Positions 1 to 20,007 of a stretch of 20,007 nucleotides of DNA are shown one piece after another. The DNA is taken from the NCBI RefSeq assembly GCF_000003605.2, contig NW_003124897.1, forward strand, positions 289,338-309,344. Reading direction: 5' to 3'. The notes beneath the pieces were generated by a model. That model had not been told where the DNA came from. It was given only the letters and a program-made list of their open reading frames with translations, and did not search any database. Position 1 is the first letter of the stretch, and every line of letters starts with the position of its first letter. The position numbers and the translations under genes are program-made. Source of the DNA: Saccoglossus kowalevskii. Its lineage: Eukaryota > Hemichordata > Enteropneusta > Harrimaniidae.

Positions 1-1010
1 TAAATTATACAGAAAGTAGATCTAACTTGTTGGTAAATTATACAGAAAGTAGACCTAACTTGTTGGGAAATTATACAGAAAGTAGACCTAACTTGTTGGG
101 AAATTATACAGGAAGTAGACCTAACTTGTTGGGAAATTATACAGGAAGTAGACCTAACTTGTTGGGAAATTATACAGAAAGTAGACCTAACTTGTTGGGA
201 AATTATGCAGGAAGTAGATCTAACTTGTTGGTAAATTATACAGAAAGTAGACCTAGCTTGTTGGTAAATTATATAGGAAGTAGACCTAACTTGTTGGTAA
301 ATTACACAGGAAGTAGACCTAACTTGTTGGTAAATTATACAGAAAGTAGACCTAACTTGTTGGTAAATTATACAGAAAGTAGACCTAGCTTGTTGGTAAA
401 TTATACAGAAAGTAGACCTAGCTTGTTGGTAAATTATACAGAAAGTAGACCTAGCTTGTTGGTAAATTATACAGGAAGTAGACCTAACTTGTTGGTAAAT
501 TATACAGGAAGTAGACCTAACTTGTTGGGATATTATACAGAAAGTAGACCTAACTTGTTGGGAAATTATACAGGAAGTAGACCTAACTTGTTGGGAAATT
601 ATACAGAAAGTAGACCTAACTTGTAGGTAAATTATACAGGAAGTAGATCTAACTTGTTGGTAAATTATACAGGAAGTAGACCTAACTTGTTAGGAAAATA
701 TACAGGAAGTAGATCTAACTTGTTGGTAAATTATACAGGAAGTAGACCTAACTTGTTGGTAAAATATACAGGAAGTAGACCTAACTTGTTGGTAAAATAC
801 AGGAAGTAGACCTAACTTTGTTGGTAAATTATACAGGAAGTAGATCTAACTTGTTGGTAAATTATACAGAAAGTAGACCTAACTTGTTGGTAAATTATAC
901 AGGAAGTAGATCTAACTTGTTGGTAAATTATACAGGAAGTAGACCTAACTTGTTGGGAAAATATACAGGAAGTAGACCTAACTTGTTGGGAAATTATACA
1001 GTTAGTAGAA
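1..1010. repeat. 33-bp minisatellite array (about 30 copies, continues left)
   Basis: The array consists of head-to-tail copies of a 33-bp unit containing ATTATACAGAAAGTAGACC followed by TAACTTGTTGG. Common variants are GAAAGT/GGAAGT, GACCT/GATCT, CTAAC/CTAGC and TTGGT/TTGGG. The window starts inside it, and its right end decays in ATTATACAGTTAGTAG near 1010. Because 33 is a multiple of three, one plus-strand frame stays open for almost 200 codons (27-626, repeat NYTESRPNLLG). That frame has no ATG, only TTG, ends when one TTG mutates to TAG, and is broken by a length change near 795. Nearly every variable site changes the amino acid, so it is not a coding region. The array lies in the CaMKII intron just before the hub exons. 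Confidence 0.95.
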
Positions 1011-1308: not shown

Positions 1309-1392
1309 CTCTAACATCTTCATCTTCAATTGTATTACTATCTAAGGACTCCTTAACTCCGTTTGATTTCTTATTCATCAATGTCCGCCCAG
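1309..1392 (-). CDS. CAMK2: CaMKII linker exon adjoining the hub domain (84 nt)
   Basis: The exon follows TTATTTTACCTTAG (AG at 1393-1394) and ends TTAGAG|GTAAGAAG (donor 1301-1308). In phase 1 it has two leading bases, 27 codons and one trailing base. The peptide begins GRTLMNKKSNGVKES and ends NTIEDEDVR. This matches the conserved C-terminal part of the CaMKII linker, which in mammals runs KKPDGVKES...NTTIEDEDVK before the hub (ARKQEIIK...). The GRTLM-NKK start also resembles the fly CaMKII linker GRSM-ITKK, quoted from memory. The trailing G would start a GCN (Ala) codon, as expected for ARKQ. The other two frames contain stops. The hub exon itself is not found between 1 and 1300, so the 33-bp array lies in the next intron. 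Confidence 0.92.
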
Positions 1393-1853
1393 CTAAGGTA
1401 AAATAAATAATTTGAAAAAATAAATAAAATTATTGTGAGGGGTGAAAAATTGTTTGATCCCAATTTCACCATAAATGGTACAATTTATCTGTCAACAAAA
1501 CAAAATATGGTTATTCCCAACTTTATTTATTTGATAATTTGAAGGAAGCTAACCATTCTTATTATAGTGAACTTTGACATCAACTTGTTAGTCATCATCA
1601 CAAAACTTTCAACATCAGCAAAAAAAAATATTATAGTATGTCAGAAGTTCTAAACATTGTCAGTGAAAACTCAACATGCATATTGTACACTCAAATATAT
1701 ACTGCCATTTAATTAGACTAATAGCTGAAACGACAGCTTTTGTAAAATTTTTGTAAAATTGGACATGGAAGACTAATCATTGTTATTTACAGTCTTTGAA
1801 TTGCGAGATAATTACCTGGAAAAATAATTATCTAGGTGGTACATTAAATTATC

Positions 1854-2027
1854 AGGTAATACATCCTGGTATTTTAGGTCATACATCCTGGTATTTTTGG
1901 TCATACATCCTGGTATTTTAGGTCATACATCCTGGTAATTTAGGTTATGCATCCTGGTAATTTAGGTCATATCAAATATTTATATGTCATACATTCTGGT
2001 ATAACAAATTATCTAGGTCATACTTGA
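1854..2027. repeat. 24-bp minisatellite, small block
   Basis: This has about five recognisable copies of a unit with core GGTCATACATCCTGG separated by TATTTTA or TAATTTA, decaying to the right (GTCATACATTCTGG, then CTAGGTCATACTTG). It is the same family as the large block that begins 220 bp further on, and the two are split by unique sequence. Confidence 0.85.
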
Positions 2028-2249
2028 ATTATTTGGATTACATATATTCTATATTAGGGGGTCAACATTTATTGCAATATGACATGATTAATGTCTTCAC
2101 AAACTTTCATTTCTTATATTCCTTCAAAAATAAGGTGGCTTATAAATCTACAAATTTGCTTAGTTTCGGAAAATATATGACCTGCTGTCTCAAAGACAAA
2201 GTTAAAAAATGGACCCTTAAGTTCAAATGTCCTTGTATATTTTATTGTT

Positions 2250-3072
2250 TAGGTCATACATCCTGGTACTTTTTTAGGTTGTATACACTGCTTTTTTTAG
2301 GTCATACATCCTGGTACTTTTAGGGTCATACATCCTGGTACTTTTTCAGGTCATACATCCTGGTACTTTTTAGGTCATACATCCTGGTACGTTTTTAGGG
2401 TATACACCCTTCCTTATTTTATGTCATACATTCTGGCACTTTTAGGGTCATACATCCTGGTACTTTTAGGATCCTACATCCTGGTACTTGTTTTAGGTCA
2501 TACATCCTGGTACTTTTTTAGGTTATATACCCTGCTCTTTTAAAGTCATACATCCTGATACTTTTAGGGTCATACATCCTGGTAATTTTAGGGGCATACA
2601 TCCTGGAACTTTAATGGTCATGGGTCCTAGTACTTTTAGGGTCATACATTCTGGTACTTTTTAGGTCATACATCCTGGTACTTTTTTAGGGTATACACCC
2701 TGCTCTTTTTATGTCATACATCCTGATACTTTTAGGGTCAAACATCCTGGTACTTTTAGGCTCACACATCCTGTTTTTTTTTTACGGTCATACATCCTGG
2801 TACTTTCAGGGTCATACATCCTGGTACTTTTAGGCTCACATATCCTGGCATTTTTAGGGTCATACATCCTGGTACTTTTTTAGGTCATACATCCAGGTAC
2901 TTTTTTAGGGTATACACCCTGCTCTTTTTAGGTCATACATCCTGGCACTTTCAGGGTCATACATCCTGGCACTTTCAGGGTCATACATCCTGGTACTTTT
3001 TTAGGTCATACATCCTGGTACTTTTTTAGGTTATATATCCTGCTCTTTTTAGGTCATACATCTGGCACTTTC
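2250..3072. repeat. 24-bp minisatellite, main block (about 34 copies)
   Basis: The copies of GGTCATACATCCTGG are followed by TACTTTTTA or TACTTTTAG, with unit length varying from about 22 to 26 bp through the T-run. A diverged unit of the type GGTATACACCCTGCTC recurs at about 2277, 2398, 2521, 2689, 2908 and 3029. Three of the five spacings are 121-123 bp, or about five units, which shows amplification of multi-unit blocks. Unit length varies and stops are present, so there is no coding potential. Confidence 0.93.
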
Positions 3073-3738
3073 AATATTTGATAGTTAGTACACTACTAAC
3101 AAGTAACACAATATGTCACAAAGTTCATGCATCAGAATAAACTACTTCTGGAAGTGCAGGAAAACACTAATACAGTAGTAATGTTATTAAAACAAACACA
3201 CAAATATAATCATAAGTAAATAATGCACTTGTATCGCTAGAAACAAGCATGGTTACGGTATAAGTACTATATTAATAATATTAAAACTACAACTAATATC
3301 AACATTCTCAGACAATTTAAATTGTAATAAATTTGTTGGAAATATTGCAGATCAATTAGCAAAGCATTCTAAACCATGCTGTTTCCCTATAGAAACCAGA
3401 CAAACTAAGACCTGTTGAAGTATAATTACCCAAAATGCATTGCACTTTCAATTGAACCAATCAATGTTGGCTTGACAAAACAATTGTAAAGCAGCATGCT
3501 CTATGAATGTTTCAACTTTAAACTCTCAATGTAGGATCCACAAATGGACAACTGAACAAGTGAATGACAAAAGAAGCCAACATGACCAAACTTTTCAATC
3601 TTAAAAGACACCTTTCTATATTTTCTCAAATCACTGGTTGTGATATTAAAACAAGAGAAGGTAAAATGTATCTAATTTTATTTTTAAGGGATATTGGTTC
3701 TGTTAAAATTATTTTTTGATTCTATAACCAGCAATCAA

Positions 3739-3907
3739 GCTCTCTGATTGGCTGAACCATTAGCGTGTGTATATATAAAGCTTTCTGATTGGCTGATCCA
3801 GTAACGAATGTGTATATATCAAGCTTTCTGATTGGCTGAACCATTAGTGTGTGTATATATCAAGCCTTCTGATTGGCTTAGTAAGTATCGTGTGTGTATA
3901 TATATTA
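3739..3907. repeat. Four tandem 41-44 bp units, each with a CCAAT box and a TATA-like tract
   Basis: The units start at 3739, 3780, 3823 and 3864 and are 41, 43, 41 and 44 bp long. Each begins TTCTGATTGGCT or close to it, an inverted CCAAT box in the context preferred by NF-Y, and ends in GTGTGTATATAT. A fifth, degenerate copy follows (TTTTTAATTGG at about 3912-3922), then TCAATCACAG. The region is intronic in the kinase gene. The repeated spacing of CCAAT and TATA-like tract is visible in the sequence; any promoter or enhancer role is inference. Confidence 0.85.
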
Positions 3908-5072
3908 ACGTTTTTTAATTGGTTAAATCATCCTTTGGTCAATCACAGCCAAAACAGCTCTGTATAATTCAAGATATAGTGAAGATGAGATGAAAGATGA
4001 GAAAGACGCCAAGTTGTGAAAATATAATACAATTATTAAGTTAGTTAGTTGACACACCATATAAATAGAACTGATGCTGGTATCAATTAATAAATCCCCC
4101 CAAAATTATGAGATGGTACCTGTAAATAGTTGTAAGTAAACCACATTTTGACAATTTTTTTTTTTGGAACAACTTACAGAGCTAAAACTAAAACATACTG
4201 ACTGCTAAAGTTATGCCAAGAGAAATTTCCTGATACACCATGTAACACAGTTTTCCCTTCTGATTTGTGTGCAAGTGCTTATTTTAAACACAGAAACCAT
4301 ACCAATTTTTGGAATTACATGACAGGGCTTGTTCATCTTCTATTTATCAAATGGCAATTTCATGTGCTATTCTGCCATAGACCCAATTCTGTTGTTCCCC
4401 CAAAGTTATCTCAGCTAATGACATTTCATTTTTTTAAATTTCTGACCAACCCTATGATCAAATTTCTTTAGGAATGGATCACCATAAAAAGAATGGTAAT
4501 AATGTTTGAAATTACTGAAAAGCATTCTATTCCGGTAGATTATATTACCGGTATACCAAATGACATTGAACTTGAATCAGTCAGAGCCAATGAAATTATA
4601 ATTTATAACTGTCAACTTTTATGAACACCGTTTCATGCAGGGAAAGATATTAGTAGTGGTTATGAGTTTAATAAGAACAACAATTTCACACAATCTGCAT
4701 AATAGATTCTCAAAACAATTGCAAAAATATGCATAAGCTCAAAGTTTCAGATATTCTTTATACAATAGCACCCAGGGTACTAAGGTCTGAAAGTCATGTT
4801 TTTTACGGGGTGAGTGCTTCTTGGTCAAGCACACCCACCAAAAAAATATCAAATTTTTGTTGTACCAGGACAGGGGACGATCAAGTTTTTTAGGGGGATA
4901 TGAAAAATCATTTTTACGAAGGACGTTACATCATCATCTACTAGGCGAACACAAACATAGGCATATTTGGTTTACATTTATGAGGCACCAAAGAATTTGT
5001 CAGGGGAATTTTGATGATGTCATGATGATGTCATGTTATTTGTCACCGTCTTGATCAGCAGATACATATTAA

Positions 5073-5247
5073 TACTGTAAAATCTGTATTAAAAGCCGCG
5101 GCTTCCATTAAAATAGTACAATGCAACAGAGGCTTCTATTGGAGCATCTACATGATGAGAATTGATGAATTTTTGATTCTCAATTATTCAAAAAGAATGG
5201 GTACGTCTTCTATTAGAGATGCGGCTTCTAATACAGATTTGACAGTA
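5073..5247. mobile_element. TA-flanked MITE (Tc1/mariner-like non-autonomous element)
   Basis: This 175-bp segment is bounded by TA and has terminal inverted repeats of 27 bp (5073-5099 and 5221-5247) that match at 25 positions. Both start TACTGT and share AAATCTGTATTA and AAGCCGC. The interior contains related copies of GGCTTCTATTGGAGC-type sequence and no open frame. TA ends with long inverted termini and no coding capacity fit a miniature element mobilised by a Tc1/mariner-type transposase; that assignment is inference. It sits 85 nt downstream of the 18-nt exon donor. Confidence 0.75.
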
Positions 5248-5340
5248 CTAGTGATTAGCACAGATTGCAGTGAGACTGTTGCCTGTAATAAGCAGTATTA
5301 GTATAATAAGTAAAATTGTCTTTAAACATCCTCGTCTTAC

Positions 5341-5358
5341 CCTTGTCCTGTGTCTCGC
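5341..5358 (-). CDS. CAMK2: CaMKII variable-linker microexon (18 nt)
   Basis: This short candidate exon follows a C- and T-rich acceptor ending AATCCCTAG (AG at 5359-5360) and is followed by the donor GTAAGACG (5333-5340), giving AAGG|GTAAGA. In phase 1 it has two leading bases, the five codons ETQDK, and one trailing base. With the neighbours it reads R-ETQDK-A, then into GRTLMNKK of the 84-nt exon, with no stop. At 18 nt it is symmetric and would add exactly six residues. It has the features expected of a regulated microexon. There is too little peptide for similarity evidence, so the call rests on the paired splice sites, the matching phase and its position between two better exons. The TA-flanked MITE at 5073-5247 sits 85 nt downstream of its donor. 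Confidence 0.6.
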
Positions 5359-6307
5359 CTAGGGATTGTGTGAGTGTGCGTGTGGAAGTGAGAAAATGCT
5401 ATGTTAAATAAAACACAACAGACTTGGACTCTCAAAAACCAAAACATTCAGAAAAAAAACAGCCAAAGAATAGCAGAGACACCAACATCCAGTCATTAGA
5501 CAAGATGATAGCATGGCAGAGTCACCAAAATCCAACACAGACGGAAAATCTGAGATGCTCATGTCAATCACAGATCATGATAGTTATATGACTGACAAAA
5601 GAACATGCTTTTAATATAATTAGTGAGATGTAGTATTTAATAATTAATAAAATAACAAATTTGTGGATTCAGGCAGATAGCTAGGAAATCATTACAACTA
5701 TCAATTGTCTTTATTAAGTGTTTTAAGTTTGAACCAACCAGACATCAGTTAATATTATTTTTTTTAACAAAATTTAGTAGTTAAAAAAATATGGAAGTTC
5801 ATTTATTTAGCTTAAAACTAAGTATATTTTTTGTTTGTTTTAGTGCTGTAAAATTGAATAGCTAAAACAAAAATGACAGAAACTTCATGTATTCTCAGAG
5901 AAGTCAATAAAGAAAGAAAAAAACATCAATTCAATGTTTTGCAGAAAATACAATGAAATGGGCTACAATACTCAATGAACTGTCAAAGCTAAAGAGCAGT
6001 TAGAAAATATTAAGAAGCGCCAACAGGATTCACAAACACATATTACGTAACTGCAAAGAATGTACTACATAGCAATGTGACTGAGATATATGCAGAGCAG
6101 ACAAGACCGATGAAGAGAGAATCAATACAAGTAAAATGGAAATCTCCGAAATTGGATAAAAATGGCTGTCGTGGCATGCAACTAAACTGAACCTACAGTT
6201 ATTTACCAGCATGTGAAAGTCACAGGCCAATCAAAAACATGGTTACATTTGACTGACCAATCACATTCAATGTTGTAAAACCCTGCAGAATCAGCTGTGC
6301 AACTTAC
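5359..6307 (-). other. CaMKII intron between the 72-nt and 18-nt exons
   Basis: This 949-nt phase-1 intron has no tandem repeat or mobile element that I can see. On the minus strand a TGCATG (RBFOX-type) motif lies at 6175-6180, about 127 nt after the 72-nt exon donor. The open frame at 6030-6230 has no splice or family support. Confidence 0.7.
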
Positions 6308-6379
6308 GTAGTGGATCTTGTTGTACTCTGTTCGTAACATTTGTAATATTTGCAACTTTTGCTTTATTAGCTACCTGAC
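6308..6379 (-). CDS. CAMK2: CaMKII variable-linker cassette exon (72 nt)
   Basis: The exon starts after AATATTTCAG (acceptor AG at 6380-6381) and ends CTAC|GTAAGTTG (donor 6302-6307). In phase 1 it has two leading bases, 23 codons beginning QVANKAKVANITN and ending VQQDPL, and one trailing base. The other two frames hit stops within the first four codons. Joined to the 43-nt exon it adds a Ser at the junction (A+GT), and joined to the 18-nt exon it adds an Arg (C+GC). The peptide is polar, rich in Asn, Val, Thr and Lys, and I do not recognise it in vertebrate CaMKII linkers; linker inserts are known to be poorly conserved. Its length is a multiple of three and both flanking introns are phase 1, so it suits optional inclusion. 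The intron upstream is about 11.1 kb and carries the 52-, 31/32- and 29-bp arrays. Confidence 0.75.
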
Positions 6380-7443
6380 CTGAAATATTGAGAATATAAT
6401 TGAGTTACCCTAGCAATGATACAACAGCCTGAAAACACATACTGTGTGGTTACTACGACAACCTATACAGAGCAGCATCAGTAAGCAAAGTGAGGATCCA
6501 GTTTTTCTGCAAAGAGTGTTGCTATGGTGATGTCAGCGATGATACCAGCATTGTATCCAATAACTCTGCTTCTTTCACATTTGTTATTTATGTTGCTTTT
6601 AATTCCTAATAAGGATGGGTGTATTTCACAGCATCATTCAAGGCAATGTTACAATGAAGCAATACCTTTAGTGGTTTTAGTAATACATGAAGTTTCTGTC
6701 ATGAAATGATAGGTTTTAAAAGGAGTCAAAAAATAAAATCATGCTTCGACAAGATGTTGTTGCCTAGCAAGCTATCATCATGGCAACCAGCAAATATGTT
6801 TCAGCGTGTTTGTTCTCTTTTCTATCTCACACCCGTTTGTTTTATTTTATTCTTACTATCCTACATTTGTACCAGTGTAGTAGAAAAGTGGAATAGAAAT
6901 CTCAGTATAAAGTCTAAATAGTGTTTGACACCGAAAAAATTCTAATTTGGAAAAAAATTTTCAATGTCAATGCCAAATCTGTTAAGTGCAAACTAACACT
7001 ACATACTATTCAAATATTAAAAAAAAAGAAATCAATTGATTTGTTGGTATGGCAACCATTACCAACGACATTTTTGGGTGAAAATAAAAAAGTTAACACA
7101 CACAAAAAAAGTGGTCCGCTAAAATGTTTTTTGTGATTTCAAATAAAACTGAGATGGTAAAAATTCGGGAATTTGTTTTATGGACATTACAGCCATGCAA
7201 TGAAATGAAGACCAAGCAAGCATGAAGAGATGCAATGCATTCTGGGAATGTAGGTATGGATATTGTCTAGAAGAGAGGAGGGTATACAGCACTGAATAAA
7301 CTTGTCAATGGTTGTTTGTGATGAAATATTGTCTATTGTTTTGTTTCAATCAGACCAAACAGAACAAGATATCTAGTTGGTTATTCAACTTTCACATCGG
7401 GACACATGGTGTTTTATTCTAAAGGATTAACCATAGTAATCTT

Positions 7444-7486
7444 GGGGGTTGGGGCAATCAATTGAGTAAATTACCCCCCCCCCCCC
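7444..7486. other. G-run and 13-C run forming a potential G:C hairpin
   Basis: GGGGGTTGGGG at 7444-7454 is followed about 20 bp later by thirteen consecutive C (7474-7486). The two can pair on one strand, and the minus strand carries a run of 13 G. The C-run length is prone to sequencing or assembly error. Confidence 0.6.
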
Positions 7487-7734
7487 ATTTCTTTCTTGTT
7501 TTAAATTTCACCATCTCCTGTCTAAATTTCGTTTGTGTTTTTTTTCTAACAAATAAATGTTGAGATTTTTCAGATATCAGAGCAATAGAGGGCAATCAGG
7601 TAATTACATAGAGGGGAACTGGAGAATCTATAAATCCACACAACATCCTTATTTCATTCATGCAAGAAAACAGACATGCATGTGTGGATATGGAAACCCT
7701 ACAAGTAGACAATATGGGATGCTGTGACATGTTT

Positions 7735-8792
7735 AAGGAAAGGTGTAGAACAGAGAGAAGGAACTGGAGAGGAAGATGAAATAACAATATGCAACAGAGA
7801 AAAAAAAATTGGGAACGAGGATGAGACATGGATGAAAAGATGTGAAACAGAGAAGAATTTGTGGATGAAGAGAAGACATGCAAGAAAAGAAGTGAAACAG
7901 AGAGAAGAATTTGTGGATGAAGAGGAGACGTAGTGAAAAGATGTGAAACAGAGAGAAGAATTTGGGGACGAAGATGAGACATGGATGAAAAGATGTGAAA
8001 CAGAGAAGAATTTGTGGATGAAGAGAAGACATACAAGAAAAGAAGTGAAACAGAGAGAAGAATTTGTGGATGAAGAGGAGACGTGGATGAAAAGATGTGA
8101 AACAGAGAGAAGAATTTGGGGATGAAGAGAAGACATGGATGAAAAGATGTGAAACAGAGAGAAGAGTTTGTGGATGAAAATGAGAAATGGCTGAAAAGAT
8201 GTGAACAGGAAAAAGAATTTGTAGGCAAAGATGAGACAAAGATGTGAAACAGAGAGAAGAATTTGGGGACGAAGATGAGACATGGATGAAAAGATGTGAA
8301 ACAGAGAGAAGAATTTGTTGATGAAAATGAGACATGGATGAAATGTATGAAACAGAGAAGAATTTGGGAATGAAAATGAGACATGGATTAAAAGATGTGG
8401 AACAGAGAGAAGAATTTGTGGATGAAGAGGAAACGTGGATAAAAAGATGTGAAACAGAGAGAAGAATTTGGAAATGAAGAGAAGACATGGATGAAGAGAT
8501 GCAAAACAGAGAGAAGAATTTGGGGATGAAGAGAAGACATGGATGAAAAGATGTGAAACAGAAGAATTTGTGGATGAAGAAAAGACGTGCATGAAAAGAA
8601 GTGAAACAGAGAGAAGAATTTGTGGATGAAGAGGAGACGTGGATGAAAAGATGTGAAACAGAGAGAATGAATTTGTGGATGAAAATAAGACATGGATGAA
8701 AAGATGTGAAACAGAGAGAAGAATTTGGGGATGAAGAGAAGACAAGGATGAAAAGACTTTGTGGATGAAGAGGAGACGTGGATGAAAAGATG
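7735..8792. repeat. 52-bp purine-rich minisatellite (about 20 copies)
   Basis: The unit contains GATGAAAAGATGTGAAACAG, then AGAGAAGAATTTG(T/G)GGATG, then AAGAGAAGACATG. Copies differ by small insertions and deletions, and the left end is degenerate. The plus strand is strongly purine-rich, so the pre-mRNA sense is CU-rich. The reverse complement of the unit lacks TAA, TAG and TGA, and 52 leaves remainder 1 on division by three. All three minus frames therefore run open for 260-390 codons and spell the same cyclic peptide (FHPQILLSVSHLFIHV type). These overlapping frames are a repeat artefact, and the longest one starts at GTG. Confidence 0.95.
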
Positions 8793-11118
8793 ATTAAATG
8801 GAAAAAAGGAAAATAATATTTAATGAGTAATAAACAAAAATCATAATATAATGAAAGACAGTTGTAAGAATGAATCAGGACAGATGAAAAGAGTTCCACT
8901 CTAAGATGTATTATGTAAGAATGACAAACTCCTAAAATCTAAGTAATGTGAGAAAGTTGATGGTTTGAGTAAATAGATTTTACAGAGCAAGAAAAAATAC
9001 AGATTCAAATCTGTTATTGACTGTACAAATTATTATAATAGCAGCTGAAGTTTTGACTTAATAATTGAATAATAAATGTAGTTAATATTTAACTACAGGT
9101 AACAGAAATCTGGATATAAGACAACTGCATAAATTCACTGCTATAAAAGTCAGAAATATAATATACAACTGATTACAAGGGGAATGAATATCGTGATGTG
9201 TTGAGGCAGCAAACTGGCAAGCATTCGAGAACTGGCCATTAACTTTTTGTTGAATTTTGTGTGCATGATGATGACGGTACAGTGTACAATTTCGAATTGT
9301 AGGATTAATTAAAAGAAATTATTTGTCAAATTAAATTATTGCAGTGAAATTACCAATAATCACTGAACTGGATGTTGACTATTGGTTTCCACCATGTGTT
9401 CCTTTTCAATGATGTTCAAAGTACACAGAGTAGAAAAACACTGAAGAGTAAACCTTGACAGTTTTATACTCTCTGTACAGTAGTTGTTGTTATGAAAACA
9501 TGGATAGCAACACAAAATGAACGGCAAACAAATTAACTCAAATATGCGTGTACGATTTAAACTTGCTGCCGCAACACTTCACAGAAATCCCTTTAATACG
9601 TCTGAGAATGAGTTTTCCAGAGTTTCAGAACAAAAACCAATATTATTTCTAATTATAGTTCGTAATCGCTTTCCTTACGCAATGAAGTTCTTCCAACTAC
9701 TAACCAATATGCTACACTGAATATACAAATTTTCAAAGAAAAAAATATAAAGTTTGAAAAATGAACTTTCCTCAAGTGCCGCCACACAGAGAGAACCATG
9801 CAATATAGTTAAGTCTCATATTTATTTATTTTTCACACAAAATGGTCAATGCAATTCCAGCAAAATCCAAGAAATTCATCACAATATAAATTGACACAAG
9901 CTTAGTTTTAAAATCAAGAATGTGTTAACACTATTTGCAGTACAAAGTAATATTTGCATAACAGGCCTCTTTAACTTACTGAAGAAAAAGAAAGGAATCA
10001 TCAAGATGGCAGTAGTTAGCTTACACAAGAAATTCCAGCAAATACCTGAACCAACATATCAAAGATTGAATCACAAAGAGAGTGAAAGAAAAACACTGAA
10101 AAGAAACACACTCAAGAGAGCAATTGTAAATCACAAAACAAATGAAAACGAGAAAAAAAATATATATATATATCTGGCATGCAGAATGAGTAAGAATGAA
10201 GGCTGACCTGATTTGGTCTGTACATTGCCTAGAAAAATAGCATAAAGGAGAAAGAAAAAGGAGAAAGATAAGGGAACATGTTAGTATGCAAACCATTTTG
10301 ATTGGATGATGTGAAGTGGAAGCTCTAGTTTGGAGTTTAGTAACAAATTCTTATCTTCTGATATAATTTTAGAAAAATAGTTATTGTTTCAAAACAAAAA
10401 CAGGATTAGAATTGTTTTCAAGAATGATCTAATGGTAACTGATATCCAGTTGACCAGAAAGCCAAAGTACCGGGTATACATTTTTCAGTCATATAATTTC
10501 TGATAACGCAAAATTTGAACAAATATTCAAACACAGAGTGGAAGATAGATGTAGAGTATAAGATAAGATGTTAATCTAAACTCGCTAAATCGTAACAAGA
10601 ACCCTTAGCCACGTTTTGCTTTTTATAGTTTGGATGTTTACCATGGAAACTGCCACTCAGTGCCTAGACAATAATGTTCAACAAAATTTTGAAGACAACA
10701 TACTGTCAATTAACAACTAATTCAAAACATGAAAAAGAAATTATTTCAATCCTATGAAGCTAGAGGGTCTTAAGCCTGCTCAAGTTATGTGACAAATATA
10801 ACCTCTCAAAGTCTACCATGGAACAGGACATTTTTGTGTTTTAAAATGAGAACAATTCAGTTCTTGAAATAAATAATGACTTAATATGTAAATTTATATG
10901 AAGCATTCATTTCACATTATTGCAAAACACAACCAAGAACTTCTCAAATCTAAGAGGTATAAAGAGAACAGGTGATATGTTGTATTATGAAGAGAAGACA
11001 GTTCCCAATTGTCAACACATGAAATGAACATATATGTATGAATAGTTTACAGCAGGTTGATAATATGGAATCTAACTTTGAAAGGAGACAAACTTTTTAT
11101 CTTATTAGCCGTATGATA

Positions 11119-12495
11119 TTGATGGGATCACCCACCAACTTTTAGTCATGATGGGTCCATCACCCCCCGACTTTTAGTCATGATGGGTCCATCACCCCCA
11201 ACTTTTAGTCATGATGGGTCCATTACCCACCAACCTTTAGTCATGATGGGTCCATTACCCACCAACCTTTAGTCATGATGGGTCCATTACCCACCAACCT
11301 TTAGTCATGATGGGTCCATTATCCACCAACCTTTAGTCAAGATGGGTCCATCACCTTCGACTTTTAGTCATGATGGGTCCATTACCCACCAACCTTTAGT
11401 CATGATAGATTCAATACCCACAACCCTTAGTCATGATGGGTCCATTACCCACCGACCTTTAGTCATGATGGGTCCATTACCCACCGACCTTTAGTCATGA
11501 TGGGTCCATTACCCACCAACCTTTAGTCATGATGGGTCCATTACCCACCAACCTTTAGTCATGATGGGTCTATTACCCACCAACCTTCACTCATAATGGG
11601 TCCATTACCCACGACCCTTAGTCATGTTGGATCCATTACCCACGACCCTTAGTCATGTTGGATCCATTACCCACGACCCTTAGTCATGTTGGATCCATTA
11701 CCCACGACCCTTAGTCATGATGGATCCATTACCCACAACCCTTAGTCATGATGGGTCTATTACCCACCAACCTTCACTCATGATGGGTCCATTACCCACG
11801 ACCCTTAGTCATGATGGGTCCATTACCCACGACCCTTAGTCATGTTGGGTCCATTGCCCACGACCCTTAGTCATGTTGGATCCATTACCCACGACCCTTA
11901 GTCATGTTGGATCCATTACCCACGACCCTTAGTCATGTTGGATCCATTACCCACGACCCTTAAGCATGATGGGTCCATTACCCACGACCCTTAAGCATGA
12001 TGGGTCCATTACCCACGACCCTTAGTCATGATGGGTCTATTACCCACCAACCTTCACTCATGATGGGTCCATTACCCACGACCCTTAGTCATGATGGGTC
12101 CATTACCCATGACCCTTAGTCATGTTGGATCCATTACCCACGACCCTTAGTCATGATGGGTCCATTACCCACCGACCTTTAGTCATGATGGGTCCATTAC
12201 CCACCGACCTTTATTCATGATGGGTCCATTACCCACCGACCTTTATTCATGATTGGTTCATCACCCACCGACCTTTAGTCATGTTGGGTTCATCACCCAC
12301 CAACCTTTAGTCATGATGAGTCCATTACCCTTAGTCATGATGGGTCCATTACCCATGACCCTTAGTTATGTTGGATCCATTACCCACCGACCTTTAGTCA
12401 TGTTGGGTCCATTACCCACTGACCTTTAGTCATGTTGGGTCCATTACCCACTGACCTTTAGTCATGATTGGTTCATCACCCACCAACCTTTAGTC
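11119..12495. repeat. 31/32-bp minisatellite (about 44 copies)
   Basis: The unit has core TCATGATGGGTCCATTACCC followed by ACCAACCTTTAG, ACCGACCTTTAG or ACGACCCTTAG (31 or 32 bp). A marker unit with GGGTCTATTACCC and CCTTCACTCA recurs at 11566, 11754 and 12034, i.e. spaced by about 6 and 9 units, showing block duplication. A subfamily with GTTGGATCC occupies runs at about 11624-11700 and 11870-11950. Each intact unit can fold TGGGT-CCATT-ACCCA. It is contiguous with, and related to, the 29-bp array on its right. Confidence 0.95.
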
Positions 12496-13290
12496 AAGTA
12501 CCCACTAGCCTTCAGCAATGGGTTCAGTACCCACTAGCCTTCAGCAATGGGTTCAGTACCCACTAGCCTTCAGCAATGGGTTCAGTGCCCACTAGCCTTC
12601 AGCAATGGATTCAGTGTCCACTAGCCTTCAGCAATGTGTTCAGTACCCGCTAGCCCTCAGCAATGGGTTCAGTGCCCATTAGCCTTCAGCAATGGGTTCA
12701 GTACCCACTAGCCTTCAGCAATGGGTTCAGTGCCCACTAGCCTTCAGCAATGGGTTCAGTGCCCATTAGCCTTCAGCAATGGGTTCAGTGCCCACTAGCC
12801 ACAAACAATGGGTTAAGTACCCACTAGCCTTCAGCAATAGGTTCAGTACCCACTAGCCGTCAGCAATGGGTTCAGTGCCCACTAGGCTTCAGCAATGGGT
12901 TCAGTGCCCATTAGCCTTCAGCAATGGGTTCAGTGCCCATTAGCCTTCAGCAATGGGTTCAGTGCCCACTAGCCACAAACAATGGGTTAAGTATCCACTA
13001 ACCTTCAGCAATAGGTTCAGTGCCCACTAGCCTTCAGCAATGGGTTCAGTGCCCACTAGCCTTCAGCAATGGGTTCAGTGCCCACTAGCCTTCAACAATG
13101 GGTTCAGTGCCCACTAGCCTTCAGCAATGGGTTCAGTGCCCACTAGCCACAAACAATGGGTTAAGTACCCACTAGCCTTCTGCAATGGGAATGGTAACCT
13201 CTGACCTTCATTAATGGGTTCAGTTCCCACCAACCATCCTCGATGGGTTCAGTTCCCATCAGCCTTCAGCAATAGGTTTAGTCCCCACTC
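12496..13290. repeat. 29-bp minisatellite (about 27 copies) with 174-bp higher-order unit
   Basis: The unit is built from GGGTTCAGT(A/G)CCCACTAG and CCTTCAGCAAT. A variant in which CCTTCAG is replaced by CCACAAA, followed by GGGTTAAGT, starts at 12801, 12975 and 13149. The two gaps are exactly 174 bp (six units), so a six-unit block has been copied. The first two blocks also share AATAGGTTCAG in the following unit. The stem TGGGT-N5-ACCCA of the neighbouring 31/32-bp family is preserved here with a different loop, or with a G-T pair when the unit reads GTGCCCA. Confidence 0.94.
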
Positions 13291-13775
13291 TGATGATTTT
13301 AAATTGGACAGCTTACAATCATTGGGAAATAATTACTGCAAAATGTAAATATTTAACAAACAAAAAGCTAGACATAAATACGAAAAATTTGAAATAAAAG
13401 TTTGTCTCCATCTAGGTCACCTTAACAAGAACATGCTAGAAATGTAAGTTAGTAAAAAGATCTATCATAATAGTACATTAAGGAACAATGTTAATCTAAT
13501 AGGTTCTGAGTATACTAGAATATAGCATACTTATCACCTGATCATGTCACATGATTTAAACACAAAAGGGTCAAAGGTCAGGCAAGAGATAAATCAATGA
13601 TTTTTGTGTCAATCAGAGATATTTACTTTTAATTTCATTGTAGCCATAGTAACATGATGGGACAAGTTATGCAATATTTTATGAAAAGAAAAAATATTTG
13701 GAGAATATCAAAGTATTAGTTTATAAAAAGAGTATTTCTAAATCTATCTGCATGCTAATGACCCGGCTTACTTAC

Positions 13776-13778
13776 CAG
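13776..13778 (-). CDS. possible 3-nt CaMKII microexon (CTG) or splice decoy
   Basis: On the minus strand a pyrimidine-rich stretch (13781-13810, built on TTTG repeats) ends in CTGTCTGCAG. It is followed by only CTG and then a consensus donor GTAAGTAAG (13767-13775). If used as an exon it would be 3 nt and, set between phase-1 exons, would insert one codon's worth of sequence without breaking frame. From the 43-nt exon the junction would read A+CT, G+next exon, giving Thr then Gly or Ala. Alternatives are a non-productive splice decoy or a recursive-splicing (ratchet) point, although the classic ratchet has no bases between acceptor and donor. No longer exon ending at this donor looks plausible, because the sequence upstream is pyrimidine tract. 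RNA evidence would be decisive. Confidence 0.25.
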
Positions 13779-14156
13779 CTGCAGACAGTAAAGAAACAAC
13801 CAACAAACAAACAAATGTCATTCAAAAAGAAGCCTAAATGTATCTGTTGACTACAGTGTTCAGACTAATCTGAGAAAATCATTTAATATTCAGAATTGTC
13901 ATTGACTGTAACGTTTATATGTGCACAATAAGTTTGTGGGGAAAAAAATCTCCAGGTTCCTGCTGAACAATTATATAAAATATTTTGTCAACTTTTGGTA
14001 AAAAACCAAAATTTGGACAAAAAAAAGAAAAATGGTAGAATATTTGGCACAAATATTTGGCTCAAACATTTTTGTTTCCCATCAAATTATTATACATACT
14101 TTTATGTACCAATTAGAATTAAACAGACAATACTGAACTAATAAAATTATGTCATA

Positions 14157-14213
14157 AATGACTTTTTCCAAACGGCAAATGACTTTTTCCAAACGGCAAA
14201 TGGATTTTCCGCA
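14157..14213. repeat. 21-bp short tandem duplication
   Basis: There are two perfect copies of a 21-bp unit (AAATGACTTTTTCCAAACGG plus C) at 14157-14177 and 14178-14198, followed by a partial diverged third (AAATGGATTTTCCGC). It is a small local slippage product within intron sequence. Confidence 0.85.
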
Positions 14214-15109
14214 ATAAGCCAGTCCACTGTTAACAGTTTATTTTTTTGTATTTCATGCAAGATGCATTTTCAGTAAGCTAGCGTCTGTGAATGACTTCGC
14301 AAAAATCTAATGATTCATAGAAATTCACTTTGTACAATTAAAGATACTGATCCTGACAGTACTATTCATGTGTCATGTTGTTGTTTTTTCTTATTTTTGA
14401 GGAACAGGTAGGGAAGTATGGAACAAGTTTTCCATGGAAGGACTAATGAACATTATTTTGCAGCAAACAACAATAGATTAGAACATGATTACTGACTTTA
14501 AATGCATTATGATATAAATAACTCGTGAAAGGGTCTTGGTCTAGCGTTGCTCAGTGTAAACTTAACCAATCAAATCAGTAACGAAAAAAAGTGTATAATT
14601 CACAAACAATGACAACAGACATAATCTCTAATCACACAAAGTGTAATTTCTTGTTTTTTTGATCTACAGACATTCCTAATACATTGTACATTCTAATTGG
14701 ATTAACATGCACACAAACATATGAAATATCAACTTCAGCTCTACAAGACCAGTCTTGAAAATGTGTAAAAACCCAAAAATTAGAAAGAATTTTTTTTTTA
14801 GAGCAGTGCTGTGTTTATCACTACTGCAATTATGGCCAGAACCAGCAACCACAACTGTTCTCGCGTAAATTGTTGGAGCAATATTTTTCTACATATTGTT
14901 ATAATTTCTCAGTTAATTTTTAACCAAATGAACATAATTTCCCATTGCCTGATTGTCTCAACCTTATTTGTTGCAAAATATTAAAAAAATTGATACATTT
15001 TTGGTTGTTTTTGAGCGAGAAGTGGTGAAAGACGGGTTTAAATTACTCTCTGCAAATTATTGTTTTAAGACATCTCGAGTATGATGAAACAAGCAAAAAA
15101 TTGAATAAA

Positions 15110-15141
15110 GTTGAAATTCAATGAAGTTGAAATTCAATGAA
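15110..15141. repeat. 16-bp perfect tandem duplication
   Basis: GTTGAAATTCAATGAA occurs twice in direct succession (15110-15125 and 15126-15141). It is preceded by a related partial copy (TTGAATAAA). Confidence 0.85.
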
Positions 15142-16728
15142 ACAAATCTACTAAAATTAGTTGAATTAATTTTTCCAAGAAGCAAATATTCTACAAGCAT
15201 GGGTGTATAAAGCTGTATTGGGAGAAATTACATTTACTACAATTCAAGATTAAGGTATAGCAGAAAGTACAATATTAGACTCGGAAATATACTAAAAATG
15301 AACAATTTATGGGAAAAAAAAACTACAAAGAGCACACCTTGTGGCAAGATCAAAGAAAATTGGGGGAGGGCCGAATACTATGATAATATAAAAATTAATA
15401 AGAATCAACAGCCAGAGAGAGGTTGATGAGATAAGATGAAATGAAAATGATTATGATAATGATTTGCCTTATATGGTAATAGAATGGAAACTGAATAATT
15501 CTATGGTAGTGAAATTACTGCTACTGAAACAAAAGTAAAACGACTTAAAAAAAAGCCGCTATAAAAAAAAAAAAAAATCACCACACAAGAACGGAAGCTC
15601 TGACCTTGGCTTTGACTTTTGTTCTGTATAAAGCCCACTAAAGAGAGAGAATTAGGGAGAGAAAAAGAAAAAAATACACAAAGGAAATGGTTTGGTTTGG
15701 ATTATTACCGTGTTTGCAGATTTAATTTTATCGTGTATTGCATGCAAATGTGATGTTAAAAATGCGGCATTACTGAGAGAATGAGATGAGGACAATATTC
15801 AAGCTGATGTGAAACCATAACATTCCATTTTGTGAGTGCTATTGTCAGGAAAAATAAACAATTTCAAGATGCAATGCATTGCTATGACAATAGTAAAATT
15901 GAATCCTGCTGAGAAGTTTACTAGATTCCACAAAAGAAAAAGATTTTAGATCCTTGAAATCAAAAATCACCACTATCACTTTTGGATGATTTATTAAAAT
16001 AAATACCAATGAGAAAAATCTGTTGTGATGGAACAAAAACAAAATGGTCGCCTCTAATACACTATTATGGACACCATAGAAATAATGATGGCCACCACCA
16101 TTTTCTAACTTCTGTTTGTAAGTAGCAGGCATGGTCATTTAAAGTACAAACAATGACTTCCACAAAATGATTCTAAAATAATCAAGTAGTCAAATTACAA
16201 TTCATTCTGCATTTCAGATTTGAAGCGGTTGTCAGGGTTATACATTGAAAATAAGCATAATTGGGCATTCTGGAAAAGTTTTCAAGCAATCATATTTTTA
16301 ATACATGTACCAACCAAATCCTCACTTATGGGAATTTTATTCAACCATGAACTTCTCAGCAGATTTTTAAGGTTTTAGCCATGCTAAAAAAGGAACAAGG
16401 TGATTGTCATGGTAACAGAACTATATTTTACTAATCATCTAACATGCTCTATATTGTGTTCTATTTTAGCACAACAAATATATCTTTTGATGATGTTGAA
16501 ATTTCTGTCATGTGACCATTTCCATCCAATCAAATCATCCCCATAGTCATATGATCTCAGTCCACCAATAGTAAAGCCATACAATCATATGACCACTATC
16601 TACCAATCATATCACTGCCGGTAGATTTACATTTGTTTGTATTACATGTACATGCATTTCCTGTTTTCTTTAAACATGTTGTTTTCTGCATCCAGTAAGT
16701 CCATGCTGACAATAGCATGCAACAAGAT

Positions 16729-16950
16729 TTAACCCTTTCAGTGCTATTGTCAATTTTGGCATCATCTACAAAATTATTTTATATAGTCTGCTTCTCAAAC
16801 ATTAAATGTTGATAAAAATTGACAAATTTGATCAAAAACTAAAAGCAAAATCTGAACTAAAATAATAATGAAATTCAATGTAAATTTTAAAAATTTTAAT
16901 ATATGCAATAAATTTTGAGTGGGAAATATATCTTGCACCCAAAGGGTTAA
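16729..16950. mobile_element. TTAA-flanked MITE, piggyBac-like
   Basis: The segment begins TTAACCCTTTCAGTGC and ends GCACCCAAAGGGTTAA. Both ends carry TTAA, and the termini are inverted: CCCTTT matches perfectly, and GTGC matches after a two-base difference. TTAA target sites and termini starting CCC are the hallmark of piggyBac elements. At 222 bp with an AT-rich interior and no open frame, it would be a non-autonomous copy. The inverted repeat is short, so the assignment is less certain than the boundaries. Confidence 0.65.
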
Positions 16951-17519
16951 ATTCCATATTTATTTTGAGGTCGGTTTTCCATGCCACAAAGTGCTCTTCA
17001 TCTCAAGGCCATACCAGATGAAAATAAAATAAAAATAACTAACTTCGTTCATAAATTCAGGAAAAAAATGCATATTTTTCCATTTCTGTCCACATGCAAT
17101 TTTATTTTAGACTCATTATAGTAACAGACTATTCATGACAATCCTTATTTGGTTATAGGGAACGGGATTTTTTGGGAAAAAAAAATCATAAAACTTAAAA
17201 AGCAGAAACATTTATAATTTTCTCGCTACAAATTTCTCCATGCAAAAAAAAAAAAATAATTTTATGAACATGGACAGAAATGAGAGTGCAAAAACCTAGA
17301 CTAAAAATTCTTCTGGTCATTCTAAAACTAACTAATCTTTTGCAATGTACATGTAGATATCTTTCCTGTAAATGAATGGAATAACCCATGGATCAAACCA
17401 TTAACTTGTAGGGTTGAATTCTGTACTCCAATGTAACTTCGTTATTTGGCTGATTGAAAAAAAAAAAGTAACAATTGGAAACGTTTTTCTGCAAACAAAA
17501 AAACAGAAATGATACTTAC

Positions 17520-17562
17520 TTGAAAAATTCCGTGTTGCTAGCATGGTGGTAAGAATAGCCCC
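17520..17562 (-). CDS. CAMK2: CaMKII exon, end of calmodulin-binding/autoinhibitory segment (43 nt)
   Basis: The exon reads GAILTTMLATRNFS in phase 0 and leaves one base (A) for the next codon. It encodes the C-terminal part of the calmodulin-binding helix. The two Thr of ILTTML correspond to Thr305/Thr306 of mammalian CaMKII alpha, the inhibitory sites that block calmodulin rebinding when phosphorylated. Splice signals are very strong. On the minus strand a TACTAAC branch-point match (17594-17600) is followed by a T-rich tract and CACTAG before the exon, and the exon ends CAA|GTAAGTA (donor 17514-17519). From memory, vertebrate CAMK2 genes also use a short exon with exactly these residues, ending at the same point before the variable linker. 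A second frame is open but gives no recognisable peptide. The preceding exon is not in the window, so the intron upstream is at least 2.4 kb and holds the 19-bp minisatellite. Confidence 0.95.
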
Positions 17563-18150: not shown

Positions 18151-18810
18151 ATGAGCAAAAATAATATATTCTGATGACATCAATTATTGGAATTTGTATA
18201 AGGTTTCAGTTTCATTTCATAGATTGAATTATTAATGATTGACATTTCTTATCTTATGTAAATGAAACTTATTTTCATAACTCGGGGGAGGATACAGTAA
18301 CACAACCCGGGGTCACCAAGGTATACATGTACAATGTAAGATGGCTGATCAGTCATTGCATACCAGATTCATAAAAGTATAAATTGAAAGGTAGCAATAC
18401 AGCCATCTTAAGGTAGAAGCCTAGTCATAATTTTTGACAAAATTGGTCATAAATCGCATGACAATGTTCATTAGTTTATTATGTACAATCATGAAGCTAA
18501 TGTCCCATGGTACAATGAAATAGCATTATTTTGTGTGTTACAGTTATGCTTTTTGAGAAACATGTTCAATTAAACAATTTCTTCAAGAAACTATGATAGA
18601 ATATAGAAGTATGCAATCTTTGATCAAAACATATGAACAACACATTAATATTTCAGAAATCAGCAAATATGCCTCAAGAAGGAATATCACTAAAGAGCAT
18701 TATCAAACTGTTGTCATGACAACTTGATGATGCCTATCTCAAATTTGAAAGTACTATGAATCTGTGTCTGCTTTCTTACAACCTTAGAAGCTGATTTACA
18801 GGTAAATATA

Positions 18811-20007
18811 GTTCATCCAGAGTGAAGTAGTGCATCCAGGGTAAGGCAGTGAATCCAGGGTAAGGCAGTGAATCTAGGGTGAGGCAGTGAATCCAGGGTG
18901 AGGTAGTGAGAATCCAGGGTGAGGCAGTGAATCCAGGGTGAGGCAGTGAATCCAGGGTGAGGCAGTGAATCCAGGGTAAGGCAGTGAATCCAGGGTAAGG
19001 CAGTGAATCCAGGGTAAGGCAGTGAATCCAGGGTGAGGCAGTGAATCCAGGGTGAGGCAGTGAATCCAGGGCGAGGCAGTGAATCCAGGGCGAGGCAGTG
19101 TATCCAGGGTAAGGCAGTGAATCCAGGGTGAGGCAGTGAATCCAGGGTGAGGCAGCGAATCCAGGGTGAGGTAGTGAATCCAGGGTGAGGTAGTGAATCC
19201 AAGGTGAGGTAGTGAATCCAGGGTGAGGTAGTGAATCCAGGGTGAGGTAATGCATTGAGGGTCAGGTAGTGAATCAAGGGTGAGGTAGTGCATTCATGGT
19301 GAGGTAGTGCATCCATGGTGAGGTAGTGCATCCAGGGTGAAATAGTGCATCCAGGGTGAAATAGTGCATCCAGGGTGAAATAGTGCATCCAGGGTGAAAT
19401 AGTGCATTCATGGTGAGGTAGTGCATCCATGGTGAAGTAGTGCATCCAGGGTGAAATAGTGCATCCAGGGTGAAATAGTGCATCCAGGGTGAAATAGTGC
19501 ATCCAGGGTGAAATAGTGCATTCATGGTGAGGTAGTGCATCCATGGTGAAGTAGTGCATCCAGGGTGAAATAGTGCATCCAGGGTGAAATAGTGCATTCA
19601 TGGTGAGGTAGTGCATCCATGGTGAGGTAGTGCATCCATGGTGAAGTAGTGCATCCAGGGTGAAGTAGTGCATCCAGGGTGAAGTAGTGCATCCAGGGTG
19701 AAATAGTGCATCCAGGGTGAAATAGTGCATCCAGGGTGAAATAGTGCATCCAGGGTGAAATAGTGCATCCAGGGTGAAATAGTGCATCCAGGGTGAAATA
19801 GTGCATCCAGGGTGAAATAGTGCATCCAGGGTGAAATAGTGCATCCAGGGTGAAATAGTGCATCCAGGGTGAAGTAATGCATTCAGAGTGATGTAGTGCG
19901 ACCAGGGTGAGGCAGTGAATCCAGGGTGAGGCAGTGCATCAAGGGTCAGGCAGTGCATCTAGGGTCAGGTAGTGCATCCAGGGTCAGGTAGTGCATCCAG
20001 GGTCAGG
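18811..20007. repeat. 19-bp minisatellite (about 63 copies, continues right)
   Basis: The unit is GTG(C/A)ATCCAGGGTGA followed by AATA, GGCA or GGTA, mostly exactly 19 bp. Sub-blocks are clear. From about 18840 to 19250 units start GTGAATCC and end GGCA/GGTA. From 19290 to 19660 there are six-unit blocks marked by CATTCATGG. From about 19685 to 19870 there is a run of near-identical GTGCATCCAGGGTGAAATA. From 19900 on, units carry GGTCAGG. The reverse complement has no stop codon in any frame and 19 is not a multiple of three, so minus-strand frames up to 381 codons (MHYFTLDALFHPGCTISPW repeat) are artefacts. Confidence 0.95.

Follow-up and report, generated by a model that had tools for sequence, protein, structure and literature searches.

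A CaMKII gene of Saccoglossus kowalevskii with a tandem pair of exon 6 that is probably spliced in a mutually exclusive manner

Tandem exons that are spliced in a mutually exclusive manner belong to the known types of gene structure, also in kinases. JNK has such a pair, the kinase exons 6a and 6b. Exons 2 and 3 of alpha-tropomyosin form a steric-hindrance pair. In the kinase FYN, exons 7A and 7B are mutually exclusive (PMC9741552). A tandem duplicated exon event is also described for human CAMK2D, where the segment concerned lies across the kinase domain and extends to the ATP site (PMC9741552, Genome Biol Evol 2022). Four clusters of mutually exclusive exons are attributed to CAMK2D, with the exons unnamed in the part of the source that reports them (PMC5740500). 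The same work on human genes gives 57 clusters in which the donor is less than 50 bp from the branch point, a distance taken there as a sign of steric interference. The diversity of CaMKII is described as arising in the linker (PMC7991079). Here we report the analysis of a 20,007-nucleotide (nt) stretch of the Saccoglossus kowalevskii genome (572 Mb), referred to as the window, which covers positions 289338-309344 of contig NW_003124897.1 (C1732 below). The window is the linker part of a minus-strand CaMKII gene. The more notable feature is not the gene itself but its duplicated catalytic-loop exon, exon 6, which lies outside the window. The two copies, 6A and 6B, are probably mutually exclusive, and both isoforms are predicted to be active kinases.

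A CaMKII gene with a doubled exon 6

The gene was located by tblastn with a fly CaMKII sequence and by a search with the family PF08332. Six kinase exon positions were found to the right of the window, and the last hub exon, which carries the stop, to the left of it. All are on the minus strand. Spliced in silico, exons 1-6 give a single open frame that starts with the ATG at C1732:377006 and reads MATQTTTTKFSDEYDLKEELGK..HRDLK. These 138 residues form an N-terminal CaMK-type kinase region up to HRDLK, and score 115.7 bits against Pkinase with 6A and 116.4 bits with 6B (cut-off 31.7). The 65 residues encoded by the join of exons 4-6 have CaMKII chains as their best matches in PDB (E 2.4e-37). 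The hub was recognized on the last exon only, which was read by eye at about C1732:275900-275783 including the TAA. This exon scores 43.4 bits against PF08332 (cut-off 22.1) and covers profile positions 96-128 of 128. One of the two candidates scored in the genome search with PF08332 was a match. The coding part spans about 101 kb, and the introns among exons 1-6, the 6A/6B gap aside, range from 123 to 53,704 nt. In the sequence analyzed, three stretches of the gene read N: C1732:276286-289337, 309345-317250 and 340920-354573. The first two directly adjoin the window and would hold, respectively, the exon starting with ARKQEIIK and the exons for KKFNARRKLK and the autophosphorylation Thr. By its sequence as far as read, the gene is an ordinary intron-rich member of the animal CaMKII genes. 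An earlier note, made from the window sequence, had predicted that, on the minus strand, kinase exons would lie to the right and hub exons to the left. The flanking search located kinase exons and the last hub exon there, and tblastn and the exon matches agree with the note on the identity of the gene, its strand and the order of its exons. The description of the gene as hidden was overdrawn, as it is merely split by introns and a protein-to-genome search recovers it exon by exon.

Exon 6 encodes helix alphaE and the HRDLK catalytic loop, and is present as a tandem pair 10 kb to the right of the window. Exon 6A (C1732:319984-319912) and exon 6B (C1732:319856-319784) are both on the minus strand and 73 nt long. 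The gap between them is 55 nt, and their starts are 128 nt apart. Splice sites were scored by consensus only, using simple matrices. The acceptor and donor score 9.6 and 10.5 bits for 6A and 7.7 and 11.7 bits for 6B, within or above the range of the other exons of the gene. The two copies have the same entry and exit phase, and the Ser before each is split over the junction with exon 5. They share 54 of their 73 nt, and 18 of the 25 residues are identical. The residues kept from human CaMKII-delta, counted from alignments, are 22 of 25 in 6A and 16 of 25 in 6B. Helix alphaE and the turn that precedes HRD (NG to SC) are where the copies differ; HRD and the following Lys are kept in both. When 6B alone was compared to PDB, the closest matches were CaMKII chains, with weaker matches to CaMKI, CaMKIV, AMPK, GCN2 and CASK. 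When the genome was searched with 6B, two of the 20 candidates scored were matches, namely 6B itself and 6A. No further copy of exon 6 was found in a six-frame scan of 170 kb, which besides 6A and 6B gave three 9-of-25 matches in the window repeats.

Changes that alter the protein are fewer than expected by chance. The 24 codons compared comprise eight synonymous, seven non-synonymous and nine identical ones, with a non-synonymous divergence (dN) of 0.16. The synonymous divergence (dS) was not calculable for this pair, for which the NG86 method gave -1. The 19 nucleotide changes were also placed at random in 20,000 runs. A stop-free outcome with at most seven amino-acid changes had a frequency of 0.0012, and the random mean was 12.0 changes.

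If 6A and 6B are both included, 6B is read in the wrong frame and a TGA is reached after seven codons. Measured from the 6A donor, the candidate branch-point As in the gap lie at 14 to 34 nt; any others are at most 4 nt from the 6B exon. In silico, the pair combines homology, equal length and equal phase with consensus splice sites and with a joint inclusion that would be sterically blocked or frameshifted. Mutually exclusive splicing would be the likeliest arrangement, given the frameshift and stop that joint inclusion causes and a gap that, at 55 nt, is too small to serve as a normal intron. In the simplest model, exon 5 would join either 6A or 6B. Each mRNA would carry one copy only, because no usable branch-point A in the gap is more than 34 nt away from the 6A donor. 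Both isoforms are expected to be active because both proteins keep HRD and the following Lys, and they would differ in the packing of alphaE and in the turn before HRD. Since CaMKII is a multimer, the 6A and 6B forms could mix in one holoenzyme.

Several points weigh against mutually exclusive splicing of 6A and 6B in an animal CaMKII. About half of the coding part was read, namely exons 1-6, two linker exons and the last hub exon. PF08332 also matches in three of 14 control prokaryote genomes, and by itself is no proof of CaMKII. The 55-nt gap, the only part folded, has an unremarkable RNA fold (z -1.37; equaled by 17 of 200 shuffles). RNA structure within this gap was rejected as the cause of exclusivity, as it is no stronger than expected. 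The shortest gaps between abutting myosin exon matches (contig C1210) are 105 and 115 nt; these are few and were taken by eye, and as a small sample of profile-match ends, not mapped splice sites, they do not provide a proper minimum-intron figure. The synonymous divergence of 6A and 6B reflects past constraint, not present use, and both isoforms are known here from genomic sequence alone. For 6B, the last point also favors a relic, an old duplicate that was once used and is now left unspliced.

The residue counts given above, in which 6A is nearer to known CaMKII than 6B, are in line with a relic as well. However, 6B contains no stop or indel, keeps HRDLK and matches Pkinase no less well than 6A does (116.4 and 115.7 bits, respectively). 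Its splice sites are strong, and the changes between the two copies are concentrated at synonymous sites. We consider a relic improbable on these grounds. It is more improbable still that 6B is mainly a switch at the transcript level, where inclusion of both copies would cause a frameshift, a stop and destruction of the mRNA. The join of 6A and 6B does run into a TGA, but to make it, a 55-nt intron would have to be removed in which no usable branch point is further than 34 nt from the donor, and such a role would leave the constraint on the 6B protein sequence unexplained. An assembly artefact, in which two diverged alleles or a paralogue had been collapsed into one contig, is hardly credible. 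The starts of the copies lie 128 nt apart, their 19 mismatches in 73 nt greatly exceed allelic difference, and the genome search with 6B revealed no third locus. Mutually exclusive use of 6A and 6B is preferred over these alternatives.

The linker in the window

Two exons of the gene are located in the window. The first encodes GAILTTMLATRNFS, the calmodulin-binding end of the regulatory segment, and lies at window positions 17562-17520 on the minus strand. It is 43 nt long, is entered in phase 0 and left in phase 1, and its acceptor and donor score 10.6 and 9.2 bits. The second encodes the linker sequence (T/A)GRTLMNKKSNGVKESLDSNTIEDEDVR and lies at 1392-1309 on the same strand. It is 84 nt long, runs from phase 1 to phase 1, and its acceptor and donor score 4.0 and 11.3 bits. 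This exon (NKKSNGVKES..IEDEDVR), which ends in NKKSNGVKESLDSNTIEDEDVR, represents the variable linker between kinase and hub. It is certain that both are real CaMKII exons. The GAILTTMLATRNFS exon matches CaMKII chains and calmodulin-binding peptides in PDB. The 42 residues produced by joining the two exons directly match CaMKII-alpha (6w4o/5u6y, E 2.4e-10), CaMKII-delta (2wel, E 2.1e-6) and the worm enzyme (2bdw, E 4.2e-5), and CaMKII-alpha aligns to them without a gap at the junction. The earlier note had identified the same two exons as diagnostic of CaMKII. Its minus-strand positions, 17520-17562 and 1309-1392, are exact, with splice sites flanking both, and the match of the direct join to 6w4o confirms the identification.

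Two additional exons had been proposed between them, a 72-nt cassette encoding SQVANKAKVANITNVTNRVQQDPL at 6379-6308 and an 18-nt microexon (ETQDK) at 5358-5341, both on the minus strand. Both are open in the correct phase and have good splice-like flanks (12.0 and 15.2 bits, respectively). To our knowledge, their peptides resemble no CaMKII linker, which we count against them. Cassette exons as such are known in CaMKII linkers, and the variable linker of human delta is described as covering exons 13-19 (PMC7991079). However, neither proposed cassette stands above chance. The minus strand contains 84 equivalent in-frame candidates, among which the 72-nt cassette ranks 6th and the microexon 2nd. 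The plus strand, taken as a control, contains 87 candidates with similar top scores of 15.2 and 13.3 bits, the best of which equals the score of the microexon. The direct join, which already aligns to CaMKII-alpha without a gap, needs neither cassette. The earlier note had taken an in-frame join across 72 codons as support. This is uninformative. Since the junction of the two certain exons is in phase 1, every open cassette with a length of 3n nt keeps the frame. There are 84 such candidates, and the 72 codons are thus no evidence for the two middle exons. The two cassettes are thus unsupported, and we think it rather unlikely that they are genuine alternative linker cassettes. The top-ranked candidate on the minus strand is located at 10228-10208 (21 nt, 16.4 bits). 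It is absent from the exons of the earlier note and also lies within chance.

Splicing of 17520 directly to 1392 would produce a short linker similar to that of CaMKII-alpha. With both cassettes skipped, the direct join implies an intron on the minus strand at 1393-17519, which would be 16.1 kb long and contain several minisatellite arrays.

Open frames, repeats and the mitochondrial contig

The window contains seven open reading frames of at least 120 residues, all of which are wholly or mostly within tandem-repeat arrays. There are 23 stop-to-stop frames of at least 75 residues. A Pfam scan of 10 of these 23 gave six weak matches (E 0.02-0.08), none of which reaches the curated cut-off. Long open frames were rejected as genes on this basis, and the same had been stated in the earlier note. 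No structured RNA in the window was matched by Rfam.

About 6.5 kb, one third of the window, consists of eight minisatellite arrays, whose units measure about 19 to 52 bp. They are located at window positions 1-1009, 1854-1971, 2248-3071, 3734-3903, 7793-8790, 11130-12496, 12497-13289 and 18809-20007. At 12496/12497, two arrays with unlike units (32 and 29 bp) meet directly. A repeated motif of the kind 'tagtgccacctaacttagtctagcttag' is found in the 3' flank of the gene (locus L001, about 230-520).

The mitochondrial contig C4830 is 17,037 bp long. COX1 is inverted relative to most other genes, and nad2 precedes nad1. Judged by eye at conserved sites, ATA encodes Ile, AAA Lys, AGA Ser and TGA Trp. 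Tandem-like repeated frames are present at about 16243-17037. An inverted COX1 and a transposed ND1 or ND2 are described as the features that distinguish Saccoglossus from Balanoglossus, with AUA read as Ile, AAA as Lys and AGA as Ser (PMC3121625). The reading of ATA as Ile is described as a trait of ambulacrarians, and that of AAA as Lys is given for Saccoglossus (PMC2697986). The arrangement of C4830 matches the Saccoglossus-type order as given in PMC3121625. The inversions that PMC2034537 reports for the lancelet Asymmetron do not fit it.

Comparison with known tandem exons

The gene shares with other animal CAMK2 genes the N-terminal kinase, the GAILTTMLATRNFS end, the NKK..GVKES..TIEDED linker and the hub, in the same order and on one strand. 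The doubled exon 6 is the sole difference found from the CaMKII chains compared, over the part that was read, about half of the coding sequence. Unlike the diversity that arises in the linker, variation through 6A/6B would affect the catalytic loop and helix alphaE directly.

The event described in human CAMK2D belongs to the same gene family, and its segment fits helix alphaE and the catalytic loop. The passages of PMC9741552 that describe it leave the exon unnamed, and its sameness or common origin with exon 6 is not established by them. We put forward tentatively, and on balance doubt, that 6A/6B is an ancient deuterostome switch common with the kinase tandem exon of CAMK2D. Such a switch would provide two catalytic cores that can be mixed to tune activity, with linker cassettes tuning assembly. 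If so, CaMKII splicing would act on the catalytic center, beyond the linker, and animals with a single gene would obtain two versions of the enzyme. The exon 6 pair permits a direct test of whether the vertebrate CAMK2D tandem exon is older than vertebrates. Among the matches listed in a literature search, which covered neither subscription papers nor gene annotations, no paper described a pair of catalytic exons in an invertebrate CaMKII. An existing annotation may well list both the 6A and 6B isoforms.

The pair also resembles those of the alpha-tropomyosin type, in which neighboring exons are too close to be joined, the 6A/6B case being known from sequence alone. FYN 7A/7B and JNK 6a/6b are similar to 6A/6B in that homologous exons are swapped inside or beside a kinase domain. 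They differ from it in belonging to other kinase families and in changing other segments.

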